A stretch of DNA of 64,000 bases from Moraxella sp. (GTDB taxonomy: Bacteria; Pseudomonadota; Gammaproteobacteria; Pseudomonadales; Moraxellaceae), in the NCBI GenBank assembly GCA_030528385.1, contig JAUMYZ010000004.1, positions 1 to 64,000 of the forward strand. Direction: 5' to 3'. Of the stretch, positions 48,806 to 56,692 are shown piece after piece. The translations under genes were made by a program, and so were the position numbers. The notes beneath the pieces are model-generated. The model was given only the letters and a program-made list of their open reading frames with translations, was not told the origin of the DNA and made no database searches. How positions within the stretch are numbered: the stretch's first letter is position 1; the number at the start of each line of letters is the position of its first letter.

Positions 48806-50011
48806 TTATCCCTTATCTTCTTTTGTATAAAATTCGCCCACCCAAGGCGATGTGCCATAAAATGAGCCGTTAAGCTGAGTTTGTTCTATCAGATATTCAC
48901 GAAATTTTAAATAAAAACCACGATTGGGTGCGGTGGGATTTGCCCAAAATTCGTCCAACGGTTTTTGGTCAGTCAAGCCCTTGATGTCATAAAGTGCCCG
49001 CCCCATAACTTTGGTGGGTTTTTGGTGATAAATGGACTGCAATCCTGTGGTGCTATTGACCGTAACCATACCAATGCTTGCTCTGATTAAGCTGGGCAGG
49101 TGCATATCACAGCCATAAAACACCCGCCCTGTTATGCCGAGTTTTTTGGCATATTGGTCAATCAACGTACGATAGTTGCGGTGTCCACGGTCTAGTGGGT
49201 GGTGCTTAAAAACAATCGTTGTGCCCTGCGGCGCGTGGCTGGCAAAAGACGTCAACACTTCTGTAATAAAATCTTTAACATCGGCATAATTGCTGTGATG
49301 GGTGATTTGTGAATCATTATGCACTTGTAAGCCAACCAAATAAAAACGACCCCGAGCAACCAACCGCCGCTGCAGACGCTTGTCAGGATAGTACCACAGC
49401 CATTTGTACACAGGATATCTTATCCACGCCACCATCTCTTGGACAATATTGAGCCCACGATAATGTTTGTAATGTGGATAACGCCATTGCCACAAAAACA
49501 CCATCAAATAATATATAATGCTCGCCACGCACATACGCCAAAAACGGTTGGCGGTGTATTTGGGCTGACTGTTGGTGGCTGGTGGTTGTGCGCCGATTAA
49601 CTTAGGGTTTAGGCACGAATAGCCATTGATGCCATGTTCTTCAAAGGTGATATAGTCAGGTCTTAGGTAACCTTCTTCAAAAACAAAAAACCCAGCGCCC
49701 AGCCTTTGACACACAGCCTTGGCAAGCATATGATAAGGGCGACAATCATTAAAACAAACGACGGCATCAATCTGATGCGCGTCCATCACACCGCACAAAA
49801 ATTGCTCAAAATCTTCTAAACGACCGCGATAATTATCCACCGCTTGCTTGTGGCAATAAAAAAAGGCATCGCCTGCGTTGAAGTTGATTTTGTGGACGTA
49901 TTTGCCCTGCGTCTTTAAAAAGGTAGCAAAACGGCAAAAAAATGTGCCCATTTTACCTTGTAAAAGCAGAATGTTTTTATGGGACATCAGGCGTTTCATG
50001 TGAGCTGACAT
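48806..50011 (-). CDS. kpsS: Capsule polysaccharide export protein KpsS (beta-Kdo transferase)
   Basis: Cytoplasmic membrane-associated glycosyltransferase that, with KpsC, builds the poly-Kdo linker on lysophosphatidylglycerol for ABC-exported capsules. 401 residues from the ATG at 50011. In-frame ATGs at 49999 and 49987 are alternatives; the conserved part begins KNILLLQGKMGTFFCRFATF. The family region TIVFKHHPLDRGHRNY and VNSTTGLQSIYHQKPTKVMG (around 270-330) is present. The 12-C tract directly before the first ATG makes the start and expression level uncertain. Last intact gene of the kpsMTEDCS operon. Confidence 0.9.
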   Translation of the reverse strand: MSAHMKRLMSHKNILLLQGKMGTFFCRFATFLKTQGKYVHKINFNAGDAFFYCHKQAVDNYRGRLEDFEQFLCGVMDAHQIDAVVCFNDCRPYHMLAKAVCQRLGAGFFVFEEGYLRPDYITFEEHGINGYSCLNPKLIGAQPPATNSQPKYTANRFWRMCVASIIYYLMVFLWQWRYPHYKHYRGLNIVQEMVAWIRYPVYKWLWYYPDKRLQRRLVARGRFYLVGLQVHNDSQITHHSNYADVKDFITEVLTSFASHAPQGTTIVFKHHPLDRGHRNYRTLIDQYAKKLGITGRVFYGCDMHLPSLIRASIGMVTVNSTTGLQSIYHQKPTKVMGRALYDIKGLTDQKPLDEFWANPTAPNRGFYLKFREYLIEQTQLNGSFYGTSPWVGEFYTKEDKG

Positions 50012-50023
50012 GGGGGGGGGGGG
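50012..50023. repeat. Homopolymeric tract (12 G plus strand / 12 C minus strand) at the kpsS start
   Basis: Twelve identical bases lie directly against the first ATG of kpsS. On the mRNA strand AAAGG (putative Shine-Dalgarno) is followed by TCT, the 12 C and then ATG, so tract length sets the spacing (15 bases now). It is the longest homopolymer noticed in the window and of the type that changes length by slipped-strand mispairing. Confidence 0.85.
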
Positions 50024-50055
50024 AGACCTTTGTTCAAAAAAACTTTATGATTGTA

Positions 50056-52341
50056 TCATATTTGGTTATGGTGATTTTTACTGCTTGTTACATTGCGTAA
50101 TCGCATGACGTAAGTTTTTATCATTTGGGATAATTGTTGAGCAAATTTGGCATAAGGTTCGCTATCTTCTTGATAATTATACAGATAATCAATCACATTT
50201 TCAGCAGTAGCAAGCCCTGCGCCATGCGGTAAATGATAAATGGGATATGCAATTAACGTACCAAAAATCAGTTCATTTAAGGTCAAAGGTGGTAAATTGC
50301 GGCGAGCACGGCGATTGAGCGCTTGTATTTTTAGGGTGTTTTGTGTCTCTATCACATCATCGGTTAGCCCAAAGCCTGCATAAAAGGGCACGCCATAACA
50401 CACCACGTCCAGCCCACGCACCAAGGCTTCAAAACCTGTCAGCGAACTGATGGTGTGCACCACCTGACACACGTCCAAACAATCTGGCATGGCAACATGG
50501 CGCGCCACCAAATCTGCTTGCTGCAACGTGCATTCATCAACCTTGCCCACCCTTAAACCAGCTTCCACATCAGGATGGGGCTTATAAATCACAATGTCTG
50601 TGGCAAAATCGGCACGCACTCGGCTCAGCAGCTCAGCGTTGGTGCAAATTTGGCTGGCGCAGTTTTGTACAGAAGCGTCGTCTTCCACCTGTCCGACCAC
50701 CAAGCGGATTTTGCTGTTGGGTCTGGCGGTCTTTAGTTGGGTCAATTGTTGCAAAAAATTTGTGTCTGTCGCACCTACGTTGTATTTGCTGACACGTTTG
50801 TTGAGCAACAAAGCACGCAGTTGTTTGGCTTGGGCTCGTTGAGCGTCGTCAAGCAACAAATCGGTCAAAATCTGCTCAAGTCGCGATGGCGCGGTGGCAT
50901 CAAAATAAATGCCCACATCGTCCACCACCACCGACAAGGGCGCAAGCAAACTCGCCCCCAAGCCATTGGAGCGAATAAAACCGTCTTCCATACACAAGAT
51001 TTTGGGCACGTGTGGGACATCTTGTAGATGGCTGATGGTCTGTGCTAGGCGGCGTTTGGCGGACAACCCCCAAACCAAGTATTGTTGGTCGGGCTTATTT
51101 ATCAGCGGCATTAGCGCACGCCGATTGTCCTTTTGGGCGCGCTGATGATTGTACTTGTCGCTAAACAACAGTCGCGTTTTGGTTTTGGCTTTAAATTGTA
51201 AGTGCACCTTAGGCAATCCCAAAAAACCCCGCACAAAAGGCACTTTCCAGCGACTAAATTCATAAGCTAACACATCACCTGCCCAACGCTGTTGCCACTG
51301 ACGGTTTAGTATCAAATAATTCATCACTTCATCAATGCCACACGCTTGCAAGGTGGCAGGATTGGCATAATGACTGTAGGCAATATAGGCAGCATAAAAC
51401 AGCTGATGAAGGCTTGCCGTGTCCACAGCAAGCACCCGATGATGGGCTTTGACTTGGGTGTATAAGGGTGTGTCCGCCACCGCCGTATCCACAGTCAAAC
51501 CAAAACCTACATACCAGCTCACCCCAAAGCAATGCACAGTCTTACCCAACATCAGCGCTTCAAAGCCCATATGCGAACTGACGCTATACACATCACTGAC
51601 CTGCGCCAACAACGCAATGGGATTGACGTTGTCTGACAAAATACGCACAGCACCGCCATCAATGCCTTGTTTGGACAAATGGGCTGTTGCAGGCGCGGAC
51701 AATGCCCCTTGGTAAGTCAAAACGCCCATGCCTGCTGGGTGCGCCTTAATCCAAACAGTCGCCGCCGGATTGTCTTTGATGGCACAAGCAAGCATGGCAT
51801 AAAAAGCGTCATCGCCCACGCCCGCTCCAGCGATGGACGCGTCGTTTGCCACTTGGTCAATGACCAACACATGCAACCGACTTGCCGACAGCTGACTAAG
51901 TTTGGGTGCGTCAATGCTGGCGTTGTATTTGGACAGCCGATAACCAACGATTTTATCAATGGCTTGGGCAGCTTGAGCAGCCTTGTTGTCATTCCATTCG
52001 CCAACGGTCTGGGCAATCAGCCGCTGCAGGCGATTGGGGCAAGTCAAATCAAAATAAATCCCCAAATCGTCTAACACAAAGCTCGCCCCATAACGACTGG
52101 CTGTGCCACTATCAAGCGAGCGTAAAAAGCCGTCTTCTGCTGTCAAAATGGGCAGCGCCAATTTATCAGCAAGTTTTAGTGCCTTGTGGCGACTGGGTTT
52201 TTGTCCCCATGCCAAGACTGCCTGCGGAGCATTTTTGGCAGAATACAGAGCAATGTCCGCCTGCAAAGCCACGCCAAGCAAGCGGTTGTTGTTTAAAATA
52301 CCTTTGGTGGCGACCGCCAAAGATTTGGGCACAGCCATCAT
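50056..52341 (-). CDS. kpsC: Capsule polysaccharide export protein KpsC (dual beta-Kdo transferase)
   Basis: Adds alternating beta-Kdo residues of the capsule lipid linker. 761 residues with two homologous GT modules, as in E. coli KpsC. The N-module (about 15-340) has LTAEDGFLRSLDSGTASRYG and LDDLGIYFDLTCPNRLQRLI. The C-module (about 385-710) has MEDGFIRSNGLGASLLAPLS and VDDVGIYFDATAPSRLEQIL. Both modules carry a KAHP or KPHP motif (VWIKAHPAGMG and VIYKPHPDVEAGLR) and a S-S-x-x-G-F-E-A-L motif (SSHMGFEALMLG and SSLTGFEALVRG). Inner-membrane associated. Separated from kpsS by 44 bases that include the C tract. Confidence 0.95.
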   Translation of the reverse strand: MMAVPKSLAVATKGILNNNRLLGVALQADIALYSAKNAPQAVLAWGQKPSRHKALKLADKLALPILTAEDGFLRSLDSGTASRYGASFVLDDLGIYFDLTCPNRLQRLIAQTVGEWNDNKAAQAAQAIDKIVGYRLSKYNASIDAPKLSQLSASRLHVLVIDQVANDASIAGAGVGDDAFYAMLACAIKDNPAATVWIKAHPAGMGVLTYQGALSAPATAHLSKQGIDGGAVRILSDNVNPIALLAQVSDVYSVSSHMGFEALMLGKTVHCFGVSWYVGFGLTVDTAVADTPLYTQVKAHHRVLAVDTASLHQLFYAAYIAYSHYANPATLQACGIDEVMNYLILNRQWQQRWAGDVLAYEFSRWKVPFVRGFLGLPKVHLQFKAKTKTRLLFSDKYNHQRAQKDNRRALMPLINKPDQQYLVWGLSAKRRLAQTISHLQDVPHVPKILCMEDGFIRSNGLGASLLAPLSVVVDDVGIYFDATAPSRLEQILTDLLLDDAQRAQAKQLRALLLNKRVSKYNVGATDTNFLQQLTQLKTARPNSKIRLVVGQVEDDASVQNCASQICTNAELLSRVRADFATDIVIYKPHPDVEAGLRVGKVDECTLQQADLVARHVAMPDCLDVCQVVHTISSLTGFEALVRGLDVVCYGVPFYAGFGLTDDVIETQNTLKIQALNRRARRNLPPLTLNELIFGTLIAYPIYHLPHGAGLATAENVIDYLYNYQEDSEPYAKFAQQLSQMIKTYVMRLRNVTSSKNHHNQI

Positions 52342-52388: not shown

Positions 52389-54095
52389 TCACAAACGCAC
52401 AATCACGCCTGTGGCAACCGCCAACTGATAAATCACCTGAGCAATGCCACGGGCAATCTCTACGCGGCGTGTTTTGACTTTGGGTAGCACCATGATTTCA
52501 TCGCCTTGTTGGATATAATAAGCGGTGTTTACCACGCTACTTTCGCCATTTTGGTGCATGACCAAAATTTGTTCTTTGTCGGCGTTGTCATCAAAACCAC
52601 CCGACTTGGCAATATAGTCGCCGACAGTCAAATTGGCATTATAGGTCAAAGCCCCTTGGTTTCTGACCTGTCCGTTGACGGTGATGACCGAAGTTTGTTC
52701 AGGAATGTGAATAATGTCGCCTTGCTCTAGGATAATATCCTGCCATGAATTGGGCACGACCACCACACGTCCTGTGGGCTCTGCTTGACGTGCTTTGGCA
52801 ATAAACTGCTCAATGAGCTTGGCGTCTTCGCTTCGCAACTGGGCTTCTTCACGAGTGGTAGACTGGGTGGCAAGGGTCATCTCTTGTAGGCGGTCAAGCG
52901 CAGCATTGATGGACGCTTTTTGTTGGGTAATGATGGATTTGCGATAAATGCTCAAATTATTGACGTTCGCCAAACTTGATGGTTCAAGCTGAGCAATCAC
53001 GTCCTTTAGGCGCGCACCATAAGGCAAAATCAGCGCGCCATGTCCGCGATGAGCGCCCGTAACTTGCACGGCGATTGAGCCTGCGTAGCGGTCTGAAGTT
53101 ACCACCAGCGTATCGCCATTATTGACAGGCACATTGCGCGCCGCCGCCAGCGTATAATACTCTGCCGTTTGTGCCCTGCCCGACGCTCGGGTAATGCTGA
53201 TGTTGGTGGCGTCTGCCAAGGGGTTTGCCACCGCCAACACATCACCGATGGTCAAATCATTGACATTAAATTCAAAAGTGTACTCGTTTTGTACCCTACC
53301 TGAAATATTAAAGGTCTTTTTTTGTGGCGCAACGGCAATCACATCGCCATCACGAAACGAAAACGGCAACAAACGCCCCACAATCAAAAAGTCATACAAG
53401 TTAATTTTTTGGACGATTTGACCATCGCGTAGGACTTGGATGTCAATATAACTGCCGCGCTTGGGGTCAATGCCGCCTGCCCTGTCCAAATAAGACAGCA
53501 CCGAATCGGCAGCCAGCCCGCCATAATAACCTGGTTGATTGACAAAGCCCGTAACAAAGACTTTGACAGGTTGGGCTTCTTCTAAGGAAGCGTACACCCC
53601 CACATTGGAGCGATAAATGCGACTGATGGCAGATTGCACCACGTTTTGTAAGTTGCCGTTTTGTACGCCTGCCACCCTTACAGGTCCAACATTGGGCAAA
53701 AAGATGTTGCCTTGTGGGTCAACCGTCATAGTGGCAGCGTATTGATACGCTCCCCACATACGCACTTGTACGTTGTCGCCAGCATTGATGACATAGCTGT
53801 CGTTAAAGGTTGAACCCGATGTGGTGGCAAACGCCCCACGAAACAGCTGCTCACCAAAAATTTGTGCCTTGGTGTTGACCGCTTGATAAGGGCGAGTGCT
53901 TTGGATAATGGCGTTGGATTTAAGACTGGCAGCGGCCACCGCTTCGGCAGTGGTTGCTTCTGATGGCACTTGGTTGCTGTTTATCACGCCTGCCAATCTG
54001 CCTGTGTTGTTGTCTGCATAAGTATTTGCCCAAGCGGCCTGCGCCAACACCAATGAGACAAACAGTACTGAGATTTTGTTTTGATGTTTTTTCAT
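52389..54095 (-). CDS. kpsD: Capsule polysaccharide export periplasmic/outer-membrane protein (KpsD/CtrA-like)
   Basis: Outer-membrane polysaccharide export (OPX) component that carries capsule chains to the surface. 568 residues, close to KpsD (558). Signal peptide 1-23 (ending AAWA-N), no lipobox Cys. Poly-export domain at about 95-190 (SYVINAGDNVQVRMWGAYQY), then several SLBB-type units (VFVTGFVNQPGYYGG, FNISGRVQNEYTFEF, ITVNGQVRNQGALTY), each followed by a T/S-V-x-D-x-L/I-type helix. ATG at 54095. Between kpsE and kpsC. Confidence 0.92.
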   Translation of the reverse strand: MKKHQNKISVLFVSLVLAQAAWANTYADNNTGRLAGVINSNQVPSEATTAEAVAAASLKSNAIIQSTRPYQAVNTKAQIFGEQLFRGAFATTSGSTFNDSYVINAGDNVQVRMWGAYQYAATMTVDPQGNIFLPNVGPVRVAGVQNGNLQNVVQSAISRIYRSNVGVYASLEEAQPVKVFVTGFVNQPGYYGGLAADSVLSYLDRAGGIDPKRGSYIDIQVLRDGQIVQKINLYDFLIVGRLLPFSFRDGDVIAVAPQKKTFNISGRVQNEYTFEFNVNDLTIGDVLAVANPLADATNISITRASGRAQTAEYYTLAAARNVPVNNGDTLVVTSDRYAGSIAVQVTGAHRGHGALILPYGARLKDVIAQLEPSSLANVNNLSIYRKSIITQQKASINAALDRLQEMTLATQSTTREEAQLRSEDAKLIEQFIAKARQAEPTGRVVVVPNSWQDIILEQGDIIHIPEQTSVITVNGQVRNQGALTYNANLTVGDYIAKSGGFDDNADKEQILVMHQNGESSVVNTAYYIQQGDEIMVLPKVKTRRVEIARGIAQVIYQLAVATGVIVRL

Positions 54096-54118
54096 GTCGT
54101 TATCCTAGTTTTATCCCA

Positions 54119-55228
54119 TTATTTGGCGTGGTCGCGAATCACCGCCAGTACCAGCACCATAAAACCATACAAAATCAAAAGCAACACAAAAGACGTGCCC
54201 AAGACATAAGGGACACGTGGATACAAGGCTTCTTGGGCTTGGTGGGGCGAAGTGATGACCACCAAATTTTTCATTTTGCGCAACACTTCCACGCGCGAGC
54301 TCTCAAGCGATGTCAAAGCGATTTTATACAATTCAGTGGCAAATTCAACATCGGCTTTAATGCTTTCAAATTCTGCCGTCTTTTCGTTGAGTTTGGCGTC
54401 TTTGGGCGATGTCAGCTTAGATTGTTCATCCTTGATTTGTTTTTCAACGGCGCTGATTTGGCTGCGCAAACTGACCACTTGGGGCGCTTCGGGGTTAAGA
54501 TAGCTGAGCAGCTGTCGTTCTTCGGTGCGCAAACTGCTTAGCTGACCTTGCAGCCCTGCTATCACCTGATTGACGATTTGGGCGTTGGTTTGTGGGTCAA
54601 AAATCTCATTTTGATTTTGGTAATCAAGCAGACGTTTTTTGCTGTCATTGAGCCTTGCTTCAGCTTCTTCGGTTTGTGCAATCACAAAAGCAAGTTGCTC
54701 GGTGGCGGCGCGTTTTGAAATGTCATTGACAAAGTTTTCAGACTCTGCCAAGATGGCACGGTTGAGTTTTAGAGCATATTCAGGCTCAAAGCCTTCGGTG
54801 GTTACTGTCAGCACATAGCTGAGCTCATCAAGACTGACCGAAACGCGCTTTTTAAAGTACTCTTGGAGCTCTTCGGCGGTGGCGTCGGCTTTGATTTCAT
54901 TGATAAAGTCAGAGCCAGTAACGCGGTAATTGTCGCGAAACTTAAACTCGCTGTCCAACTTGGCAATCATGTCATTGGACAAGATGTATTCTTTTAGGTA
55001 CAAAGCGTCTTCGCGGTTGGTGTTGTTTGTGCCAAGCAATGCCGAAATACCAGTAGCGCTGACGCCTTGTTCGGAGACTTGCTTGATGACCACATTGGCG
55101 GTACTGACATATCTTGGATTGGTCAATAACAGTGTATAACCAGTAATCAACAGCCAAGGCACAATCACTACGCCACCAAAGAGCAAAACATTGGTGAGTT
55201 TACGTTTATTTTTTAATTTGATGGACAT
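54119..55228 (-). CDS. kpsE: Capsule polysaccharide export inner-membrane protein KpsE (PCP-3)
   Basis: Polysaccharide co-polymerase/adaptor linking the ABC exporter to KpsD. The ATG at 55228 (MSIKLKNKRKLTNVLLFGGV) gives 369 residues; the longer frame from 55267 lies inside kpsT and is unlikely. TM1 at about 13-33 and TM2 near the C-terminus (PYVLGTSFVLLLILYGFMVL), with a periplasmic part containing long coiled coils (about 170-290). The Wzz-like stretch LTNPRYVSTANVVIKQ follows TM1. Start overlaps the kpsT stop by 23 bases. Confidence 0.93.
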   Translation of the reverse strand: MSIKLKNKRKLTNVLLFGGVVIVPWLLITGYTLLLTNPRYVSTANVVIKQVSEQGVSATGISALLGTNNTNREDALYLKEYILSNDMIAKLDSEFKFRDNYRVTGSDFINEIKADATAEELQEYFKKRVSVSLDELSYVLTVTTEGFEPEYALKLNRAILAESENFVNDISKRAATEQLAFVIAQTEEAEARLNDSKKRLLDYQNQNEIFDPQTNAQIVNQVIAGLQGQLSSLRTEERQLLSYLNPEAPQVVSLRSQISAVEKQIKDEQSKLTSPKDAKLNEKTAEFESIKADVEFATELYKIALTSLESSRVEVLRKMKNLVVITSPHQAQEALYPRVPYVLGTSFVLLLILYGFMVLVLAVIRDHAK

Positions 55229-55877
55229 GTTCTTTATACACCTCAACTGCTTGTTTTGGGTCATCAAAAACTTGGGCGGTTTGGTTCATTAGCACAATGC
55301 CAATATCACAGTTGCGCTCAATATCGCCAAGATTATGCGACACCATCAAAAAACCCGCTTGCTCACGGCGTGCCTGCAGTATCTCTTCACTGCGTTTACG
55401 AAAAGCGGCATCACCCACTGCCCCTGCTTCATCTAACATATAATAATCAAAATCAAAGGCAAGCGACAAACCAAAGGTCAGCCGTGAACGCATACCCGAT
55501 GAATAACTGCGTACGGGCATATCAAAATATTTGCCAATGTCGGCAAACTCTTCTACAAAACGAATCTTTTCATCAATATAAGCCCCGCTTGAATAGAGCC
55601 GACACACAAAACGCACGTTTTGCCGACCTGTCAGACTGCCCTGAAAGCCCCCAGCCACACCCACTGGCCAAGAAATGGTGCTGTTGGTAATCACTTCGCC
55701 ACTGTCAGGCTCATCAAGCCCACAAATAATGCGCAGCAAGGTGGATTTGCCCGCGCCATTTCGCCCCAGCAGACCCACCGATTGTTTGTCGGCGATGGTT
55801 AAATTTAAATCTTTAAACAGATAATGACGCCCATGCGGGGTCATAAAAGATTTGGTGATGTTCTTAATATGTATCAT
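55206..55877 (-). CDS. kpsT: Capsule ABC transporter ATP-binding protein KpsT
   Basis: ATPase of the capsule exporter. 223 residues, normal. Walker A GRNGAGKST (38-46), signature YSSGMRS (125-131), Walker B YYMLDE (D149, E150), switch His H181. The GVAGGFQGSLTGRQN stretch is typical of polysaccharide-exporting ABC proteins. ATG at 55877, directly after kpsM. Confidence 0.96.
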   Translation of the reverse strand: MIHIKNITKSFMTPHGRHYLFKDLNLTIADKQSVGLLGRNGAGKSTLLRIICGLDEPDSGEVITNSTISWPVGVAGGFQGSLTGRQNVRFVCRLYSSGAYIDEKIRFVEEFADIGKYFDMPVRSYSSGMRSRLTFGLSLAFDFDYYMLDEAGAVGDAAFRKRSEEILQARREQAGFLMVSHNLGDIERNCDIGIVLMNQTAQVFDDPKQAVEVYKEHVHQIKK

Positions 55878-55879
55878 AA

Positions 55880-56692
55880 CTACTTACTGCGGATTAAATC
55901 ACGCTCACAGGCTTTATAAAGTAACAAACCCAAAAAGTTCACACCAACGGTCCACTTGATAAAATACAGCATACTGGCATGATAAATGGGGTAGGTGGGC
56001 GACAAAGCGTGGCGCAGTATTTCAAGCACATGAATAAAAGGATTGTACATCAGATAGCTTAAATAAGGCTCTGGCACAACATGCACCGAATATAGCACCC
56101 CAGAAATAAAATACAAAATGGTAAAAATAATGCTGATGATTTTGCTAATCTCACCGCCATAATGCCCGACAATCATCAGCACCATTGCCAGCCCAAAGGC
56201 AAACAAAAACATCATCAGCCAACAAAACAGCACTATGTCCAAATGCGCCAAACTAAAGCCAATACCAAAAAAAGCAAGCCCCAACAACAAAATCACAAAG
56301 GTGCTAAAATAAATCACCAACTCCAAAAACGAGCGCGCAATAATCACATCAATATGACGCACCGCCCGATACATCAAAAGCCCCGCATTGGCAGCGACCG
56401 CGCCCAATGAGCGTGTGGCGATTTTTTGCATCATAAAAAACGGCGTAAAACCCGACACCAAAAACAACATATAGTCTATGCCAGGCAGAACGCGCTTCAT
56501 CAGTGCACCAAAAATCACCAAAAAAATCGCCATCTGCAAAATCACGTCCAAAGGCGCCCACAAATAGCCCAAACGATAACTGCCAAAACGGGTCTGCAGC
56601 TCACGCATGAGCAGCGCATGAAACGCCGCCACCATCACCGCAAGACCGCTGCGGCGCTTGATGGGACGATAGGGGGGTAATGATATGGACAT
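55880..56692 (-). CDS. kpsM: Capsule ABC transporter permease KpsM
   Basis: Membrane subunit that translocates lipid-linked capsule polysaccharide. 270 residues, ABC-2 type. N-terminal amphipathic segment (LMRELQTRFGSYRLGYLWA), then about six TM helices between residues 45 and 262. The conserved YNPFIHVLEILRHAL lies between the last two helices. ATG at 56692 without a clear Shine-Dalgarno. First gene of the operon. Confidence 0.95.
   Translation of the reverse strand: MSISLPPYRPIKRRSGLAVMVAAFHALLMRELQTRFGSYRLGYLWAPLDVILQMAIFLVIFGALMKRVLPGIDYMLFLVSGFTPFFMMQKIATRSLGAVAANAGLLMYRAVRHIDVIIARSFLELVIYFSTFVILLLGLAFFGIGFSLAHLDIVLFCWLMMFLFAFGLAMVLMIVGHYGGEISKIISIIFTILYFISGVLYSVHVVPEPYLSYLMYNPFIHVLEILRHALSPTYPIYHASMLYFIKWTVGVNFLGLLLYKACERDLIRSK

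Follow-up and report, generated by a model that had tools for sequence, protein, structure and literature searches.

A C12 tract abutting the kpsS start codon of a Moraxella capsule cluster is a candidate lineage-specific contingency tract

A group 2/3 ABC-transporter capsule cluster, recognized by Pfam matches and gene order, lies on the minus strand of the window analyzed here, a stretch of 64,000 nucleotides (C5:1-64000) from a Moraxella genome of 2,046,605 bases in 20 contigs. The export portion of the cluster (52389..56692) comprises a gene for a kpsD/ctrA-like export protein, a kpsE/ctrB-like gene, kpsT (ABC_tran) and kpsM (ABC2_membrane). The kpsE-like ORF has no Pfam match and takes its name from position only. 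The remaining two genes are kpsC (50056..52341), whose 761-amino acid product matches the Capsule_synth family (PF05159) in two stretches, and kpsS (48806..50011), whose 401-amino acid product matches the same family with 271 bits. The distance from the kpsC stop to the kpsS ATG is 44 nucleotides. Both KpsC and KpsS are Kdo-adding enzymes that act on the lipid carrier, and in E. coli the K96 capsule is lost when kpsS carries insertions (PMC13410964).

A polysaccharide cluster is found roughly 8 kb beyond kpsM (C5 65-87 kb) and includes genes for GDP-mannose dehydratase, a GDP-fucose synthase-like protein, ManC, UDP-sugar dehydrogenase, family-2 glycosyltransferases and CMP-sugar synthetase. 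The gmd gene of this cluster is intact and contains a G8 run (C5:76647-76654; L139:13647), the length of which falls in the background class for this genome. In M. bovis, where the polysaccharides are polysialic or chondroitin-like, kpsMTEDCS and the synthesis genes also occupy separate clusters (PMC12797221). A polysialyltransferase (PF07388), which was sought to identify the capsule type, has no match in the present genome. In another Moraxella genome (G010:C1:147957-149118; L016-L022), matches to kpsS are fragments in several frames with stops, which suggests that its capsule locus has decayed.

The kpsS start codon (ATG, 50011..50009) is directly preceded by 12 consecutive C residues on the mRNA (minus) strand (50023..50012), corresponding to G12 on the plus strand. 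The minus-strand order is ...TGATACAATCATAAAGTTTTTTTGAACAAAGG-TCT-CCCCCCCCCCCC-ATGTCAGCTCACATG..., and the exact tract length is that of one draft assembly in 20 contigs. A first-pass annotation had described such a tract between a Shine-Dalgarno (SD) sequence and the kpsS ATG with a spacing of 15 nucleotides, and both statements hold. The SD-like AAAGG occupies 50031..50027 and has an anti-SD duplex energy of -3.4 kcal/mol; its distance to the ATG is 15 nucleotides, compared with 10 in the sister species. C12 thus lies between AAAGG and a conserved ATG, a location from which it could alter expression.

The ATG adjoining C12 is, on comparative grounds, the real start of kpsS, because Moraxella relatives have the same start (M-S-x-x or M-N-A-S) ahead of a conserved I/VLLLQGKMG motif. 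The same annotation had imagined that slippage shifts initiation among ATGs at 50011, 49999 and 49987. The latter two are in frame with kpsS as codons 5 and 9, but relatives do not consistently have methionine at these codons, and neither ATG is accompanied by a ribosome site. Only the ATG at 50011 is conserved across Moraxella, and the anatomy of the region together with this conservation rules out the internal ATGs as alternative starts.

An extended -10 element, TGATACAAT (50050..50058, minus strand), overlaps the kpsC stop codon. It ends 38 nucleotides before the kpsS ATG, and C12 begins 26 nucleotides downstream of it. The conserved form of the element, TGNTANAAT, occurs in the 110 nucleotides preceding kpsS in all 14 Moraxella loci (the window and 13 other genomes, L003-L015), while its background frequency in the window is 2.5% of all 110-nucleotide stretches and 10% of AT-rich ones. 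Because the element is present in all of these Moraxella loci, kpsS probably has its own promoter between kpsC and kpsS. Psychrobacter kpsS loci mostly lack the motif. The kpsS -10 escaped a consensus promoter scan, since it is not accompanied by a -35. Transcription of kpsS may start near 50043, which would place C12 at about +21 to +32, as the 3' part of a predicted leader of about 32 nucleotides. E. coli group 2 clusters also produce a separate kpsS transcript, but there it is made by processing (PMC8960920). When the native leader and the sister leader were folded, the predicted structures were not exceptional relative to shuffles (z of -1.45 and -0.31). A switch based on RNA structure was rejected because folding of the leader is not notably stronger than that of shuffled sequences.

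The closest relative found is Moraxella sp. VT-16-12, whose KpsS is 80% identical. Its leader reads TGATACAAT-...-TAAAAGG-TTTCTTTTGC-ATG, and thus has the same AAAGG ribosome site and start as the window, with nearly identical first codons, and a mixed, non-repetitive spacer of 10 nucleotides. In this VT-16-12 leader (L003:2676-2710), AAAAGG is within a predicted small hairpin, GUAAAAG-GUUU-CUUUUGC, beside the AUG; the C tract of the window replaces one arm of this hairpin. G/C runs of at least eight are absent from every other kpsS locus that was fetched, which included Moraxella, Psychrobacter and a few distant loci. By this comparison, C12 arose or was retained in this lineage only, and the absence of the tract in all other species is an argument against a conserved switch. 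C9 followed by ATG in three other genomes was considered as a possible recurrence of the layout and rejected, as the frames that follow encode 9-10 amino acids in two of them and an unsupported 117 amino acids in the third. Among the Moraxella genomes searched, the kpsS locus of the window is the sole example of poly-C ahead of a conserved start.

No other G/C run in the 2.05-Mb genome is as long as C12, according to run-length statistics that combine window counts with genome pattern searches. After pattern hits were collapsed, G/C runs of at least eight numbered 13 genome-wide: one of 12, one of 11, two of nine and nine of eight. The window contains one run of 12 and one of eight, with none of seven or of 9-11. 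Extrapolation of the run-length decay predicts about 0.02-0.3 runs of at least 12 per genome, and C12 clearly exceeds the homopolymer length expected by chance. In contrast, no A10 or T10 was found by pattern search anywhere in the genome, where the decay of shorter A/T runs would predict 20-50. This makes C12 an outlier in a genome where long homopolymers otherwise appear to be avoided.

MutS (TIGR01070) was not detected in any of 22 Moraxella genomes, including this one, whereas 11 of 14 controls were positive. Similarly, MutL (TIGR00585) was not detected in this genome, whereas all 14 controls were positive. These results point to an apparent loss of mismatch repair in this genome, and possibly across the genus. 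In the absence of mismatch repair, slips of one base within a run of 12 are expected to persist at a high rate. Given that neither protein is detectable, such slips probably go unrepaired here, and the presence of other long tracts likewise indicates a background permissive for slippage. We infer from sequence that C12 very likely slips.

Poly-G runs of at least 10 are found in 17 of 22 Moraxella genomes. In the present genome, a G11 run (C20:175971-175981; L099:7972-7982) is located between TTGACA and TAAGAT, with a spacer of 19, upstream of a gene encoding a 632-amino acid DUF4407 protein. This tract likely mediates promoter-spacer phase variation. Its layout is that of the porA-type promoter-spacer tracts of N. 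meningitidis, reportedly described by van der Ende in 1995, whereas the kpsS tract is downstream of its predicted promoter, outside any -35/-10 spacer, and thus is not of the porA type. A G9 run (C4:28263-28271; L100:6264-6272) lies where a 105-amino acid ORF ends and an overlapping 504-amino acid ORF continues in another frame. The 504-amino acid ORF has no Pfam match, and the arrangement makes this a candidate contingency gene of the frameshift type. Both the G11 and the G9 tract look like classic contingency loci. In another Moraxella genome, a G9 run (G003:C10:48368-48379; L132) lies just upstream of an extended -10 (TGGTACAAT), which is consistent with a poly-G promoter tract.

Our preferred explanation, to which we assign a probability of about 0.48, is that the slippage-prone C12, within the short 5' leader of kpsS, serves as a lineage-specific contingency tract and tunes KpsS by altering ribosome-site spacing. 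In this model, transcription of the kps cluster would be one source of kpsS mRNA, and the extended -10 promoter immediately upstream of the gene would probably be another; both mRNAs would carry the C tract between AAAGG, the SD-like sequence, and the AUG. Slippage of DNA polymerase, left uncorrected where MutS and MutL are undetectable, would shift the tract by single bases. Each slip would move the ribosome site relative to the AUG and thereby adjust the amount of KpsS, with shorter tracts probably giving more, and graded KpsS would in turn lead to graded priming of capsule chains. Among 14 genes with an upstream AAGG in sequence examined from this genome, eight have an AAGG-to-start spacing of 7-9, and the value for kpsS is 15. 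The first-pass annotation had proposed that slips change this spacing, and indeed 15 is past the optimum and is altered by each slip. A clean on/off effect is not expected, since slips of one to three bases give spacings of 12-18, all of which exceed 7-9. Consequently, the most likely effect is a graded adjustment of kpsS translation, and not a frame switch.

This effect may be small, because the spacing is already past the optimum and because most relatives do not have a clear ribosome site. Most other kpsS leaders in Moraxella have either a poor SD or none; this weakens the spacing model, and perhaps kpsS initiation is independent of the SD. A modest change in KpsS may leave the capsule unaltered, although a strong change would affect it. 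We regard the chance that C12 has a biologically meaningful effect as roughly even to somewhat better. Overall, the earlier proposal of a phase switch is partly supported: the position of the tract between an SD-like sequence and the start, its outlier length, its restriction to one lineage, the second poly-G tract and the undetectable MutS all favor it, but switching among ATGs, a frame switch from an upstream TTG and on/off spacing are not supported. The conserved extended -10, the apparent loss of mismatch repair and the G11 promoter-spacer tract were not part of that proposal.

It is somewhat unlikely that C12 slips with no useful regulatory effect, as an expansion of neutral or mildly deleterious effect that a tolerant leader has retained by chance in this lineage. 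Such an expansion would fit with the absence of the tract from all other species, the lack of a clear SD in most relatives and a spacing that is past the optimum at every plausible length, and homopolymers change easily when mismatch repair is missing. However, the genome's extreme outlier is situated exactly between the ribosome site and the start of a surface-polysaccharide gene, which is a typical contingency target, and other long homopolymers seem to have been purged. An action of C12 on transcription, through promoter escape, early elongation or mRNA stability, is unlikely, although it is a serious rival to the spacing model. The conserved extended -10 does imply that C12 (about +21 to +32) falls within the part of the transcript that is made first, and uspA1 mRNA depends on tract length (PMC7302503), but C12 is not between promoter elements, the start site is a predicted one, and read-through transcripts from kpsC would bypass an effect on promoter escape. 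A transcriptional effect should alter only promoter-derived mRNA, whereas an effect of spacing should be seen with read-through mRNA as well as with promoter mRNA.

Long homopolymers are prone to sequencing errors, and the assembly is a draft of 20 contigs, so C12 or its exact length might be an assembly or sequencing error. This is very unlikely, since both flanks align to the sister species, whose spacer differs and is non-repetitive, the tract is internal to a 204-kb contig, and A/T homopolymers are not inflated in the assembly. Least credible is a frame-type switch in which a TTG (50037..50035) initiates an N-terminally extended KpsS. The frame arithmetic given for this proposal is correct, in that the TTG reaches the kpsS frame only with 13 C residues (or 10 or 16). 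However, the TTG lies only about 6 nucleotides from the predicted transcription start and has no SD, translation from it would encode poly-Pro, and the conserved ATG after the tract is usable at every length. The TTG was judged to be non-functional because of its distance to the -10 and the absence of an SD.

Capsule switches that act by frameshift include the poly-C tract of N. meningitidis siaD and the poly-G tract of Campylobacter kpsM, both of which are inside coding sequences. The kpsS tract resembles these in being a slippery G/C homopolymer at a capsule gene. In contrast to them, it is in the leader, precedes the conserved start and cannot shift the frame of that start, so it does not belong to the coding-frame type. 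In E. coli K96, a reversible A7/A6 frameshift in kpsC abolishes the capsule (PMC13410964). The parallel is slippage of a homopolymer at a gene for the Kdo linker of a capsule exported by an ABC transporter, but the A7 tract is coding, the events are rare, and the gene is kpsC rather than kpsS. Within the same genus, the G(n) tract upstream of M. catarrhalis uspA1 alters mRNA levels about 21-fold between G10 and G12 (PMC7302503). Both are G/C homopolymers of about 8-13 upstream of an ORF for a surface factor, with graded output in the case of uspA1. However, the uspA1 effect is at the mRNA level, whereas the kpsS tract directly adjoins the start codon for a cytoplasmic enzyme of capsule priming, and its variation is predicted. 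In M. tuberculosis espR, a single-base slip in a 5' UTR homopolymer changes translation (PMC11898584). The location is comparable, but the proposed action in espR is through folding from the 5' end of the leader, and not through ribosome-site spacing. No description of a homopolymer between the ribosome site and the start codon of a capsule gene was found in open-licence literature.

A broader interpretation, which is doubtful, is that the distance from the SD to the start of a capsule-priming gene serves as a capsule rheostat in a genus whose mismatch repair has been lost and which uses G/C homopolymers at the promoter-spacer, leader and coding levels. A wider question that is directly testable is whether poly-G/C contingency loci across Moraxella are a consequence of the apparent lack of MutS in the genus. 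Known capsule homopolymer switches mostly involve a frameshift inside a coding sequence. If the preferred explanation is true, a tract placed ahead of the start codon of the linker-priming gene would adjust how many capsule chains are made, without shifting a reading frame or producing a broken protein.
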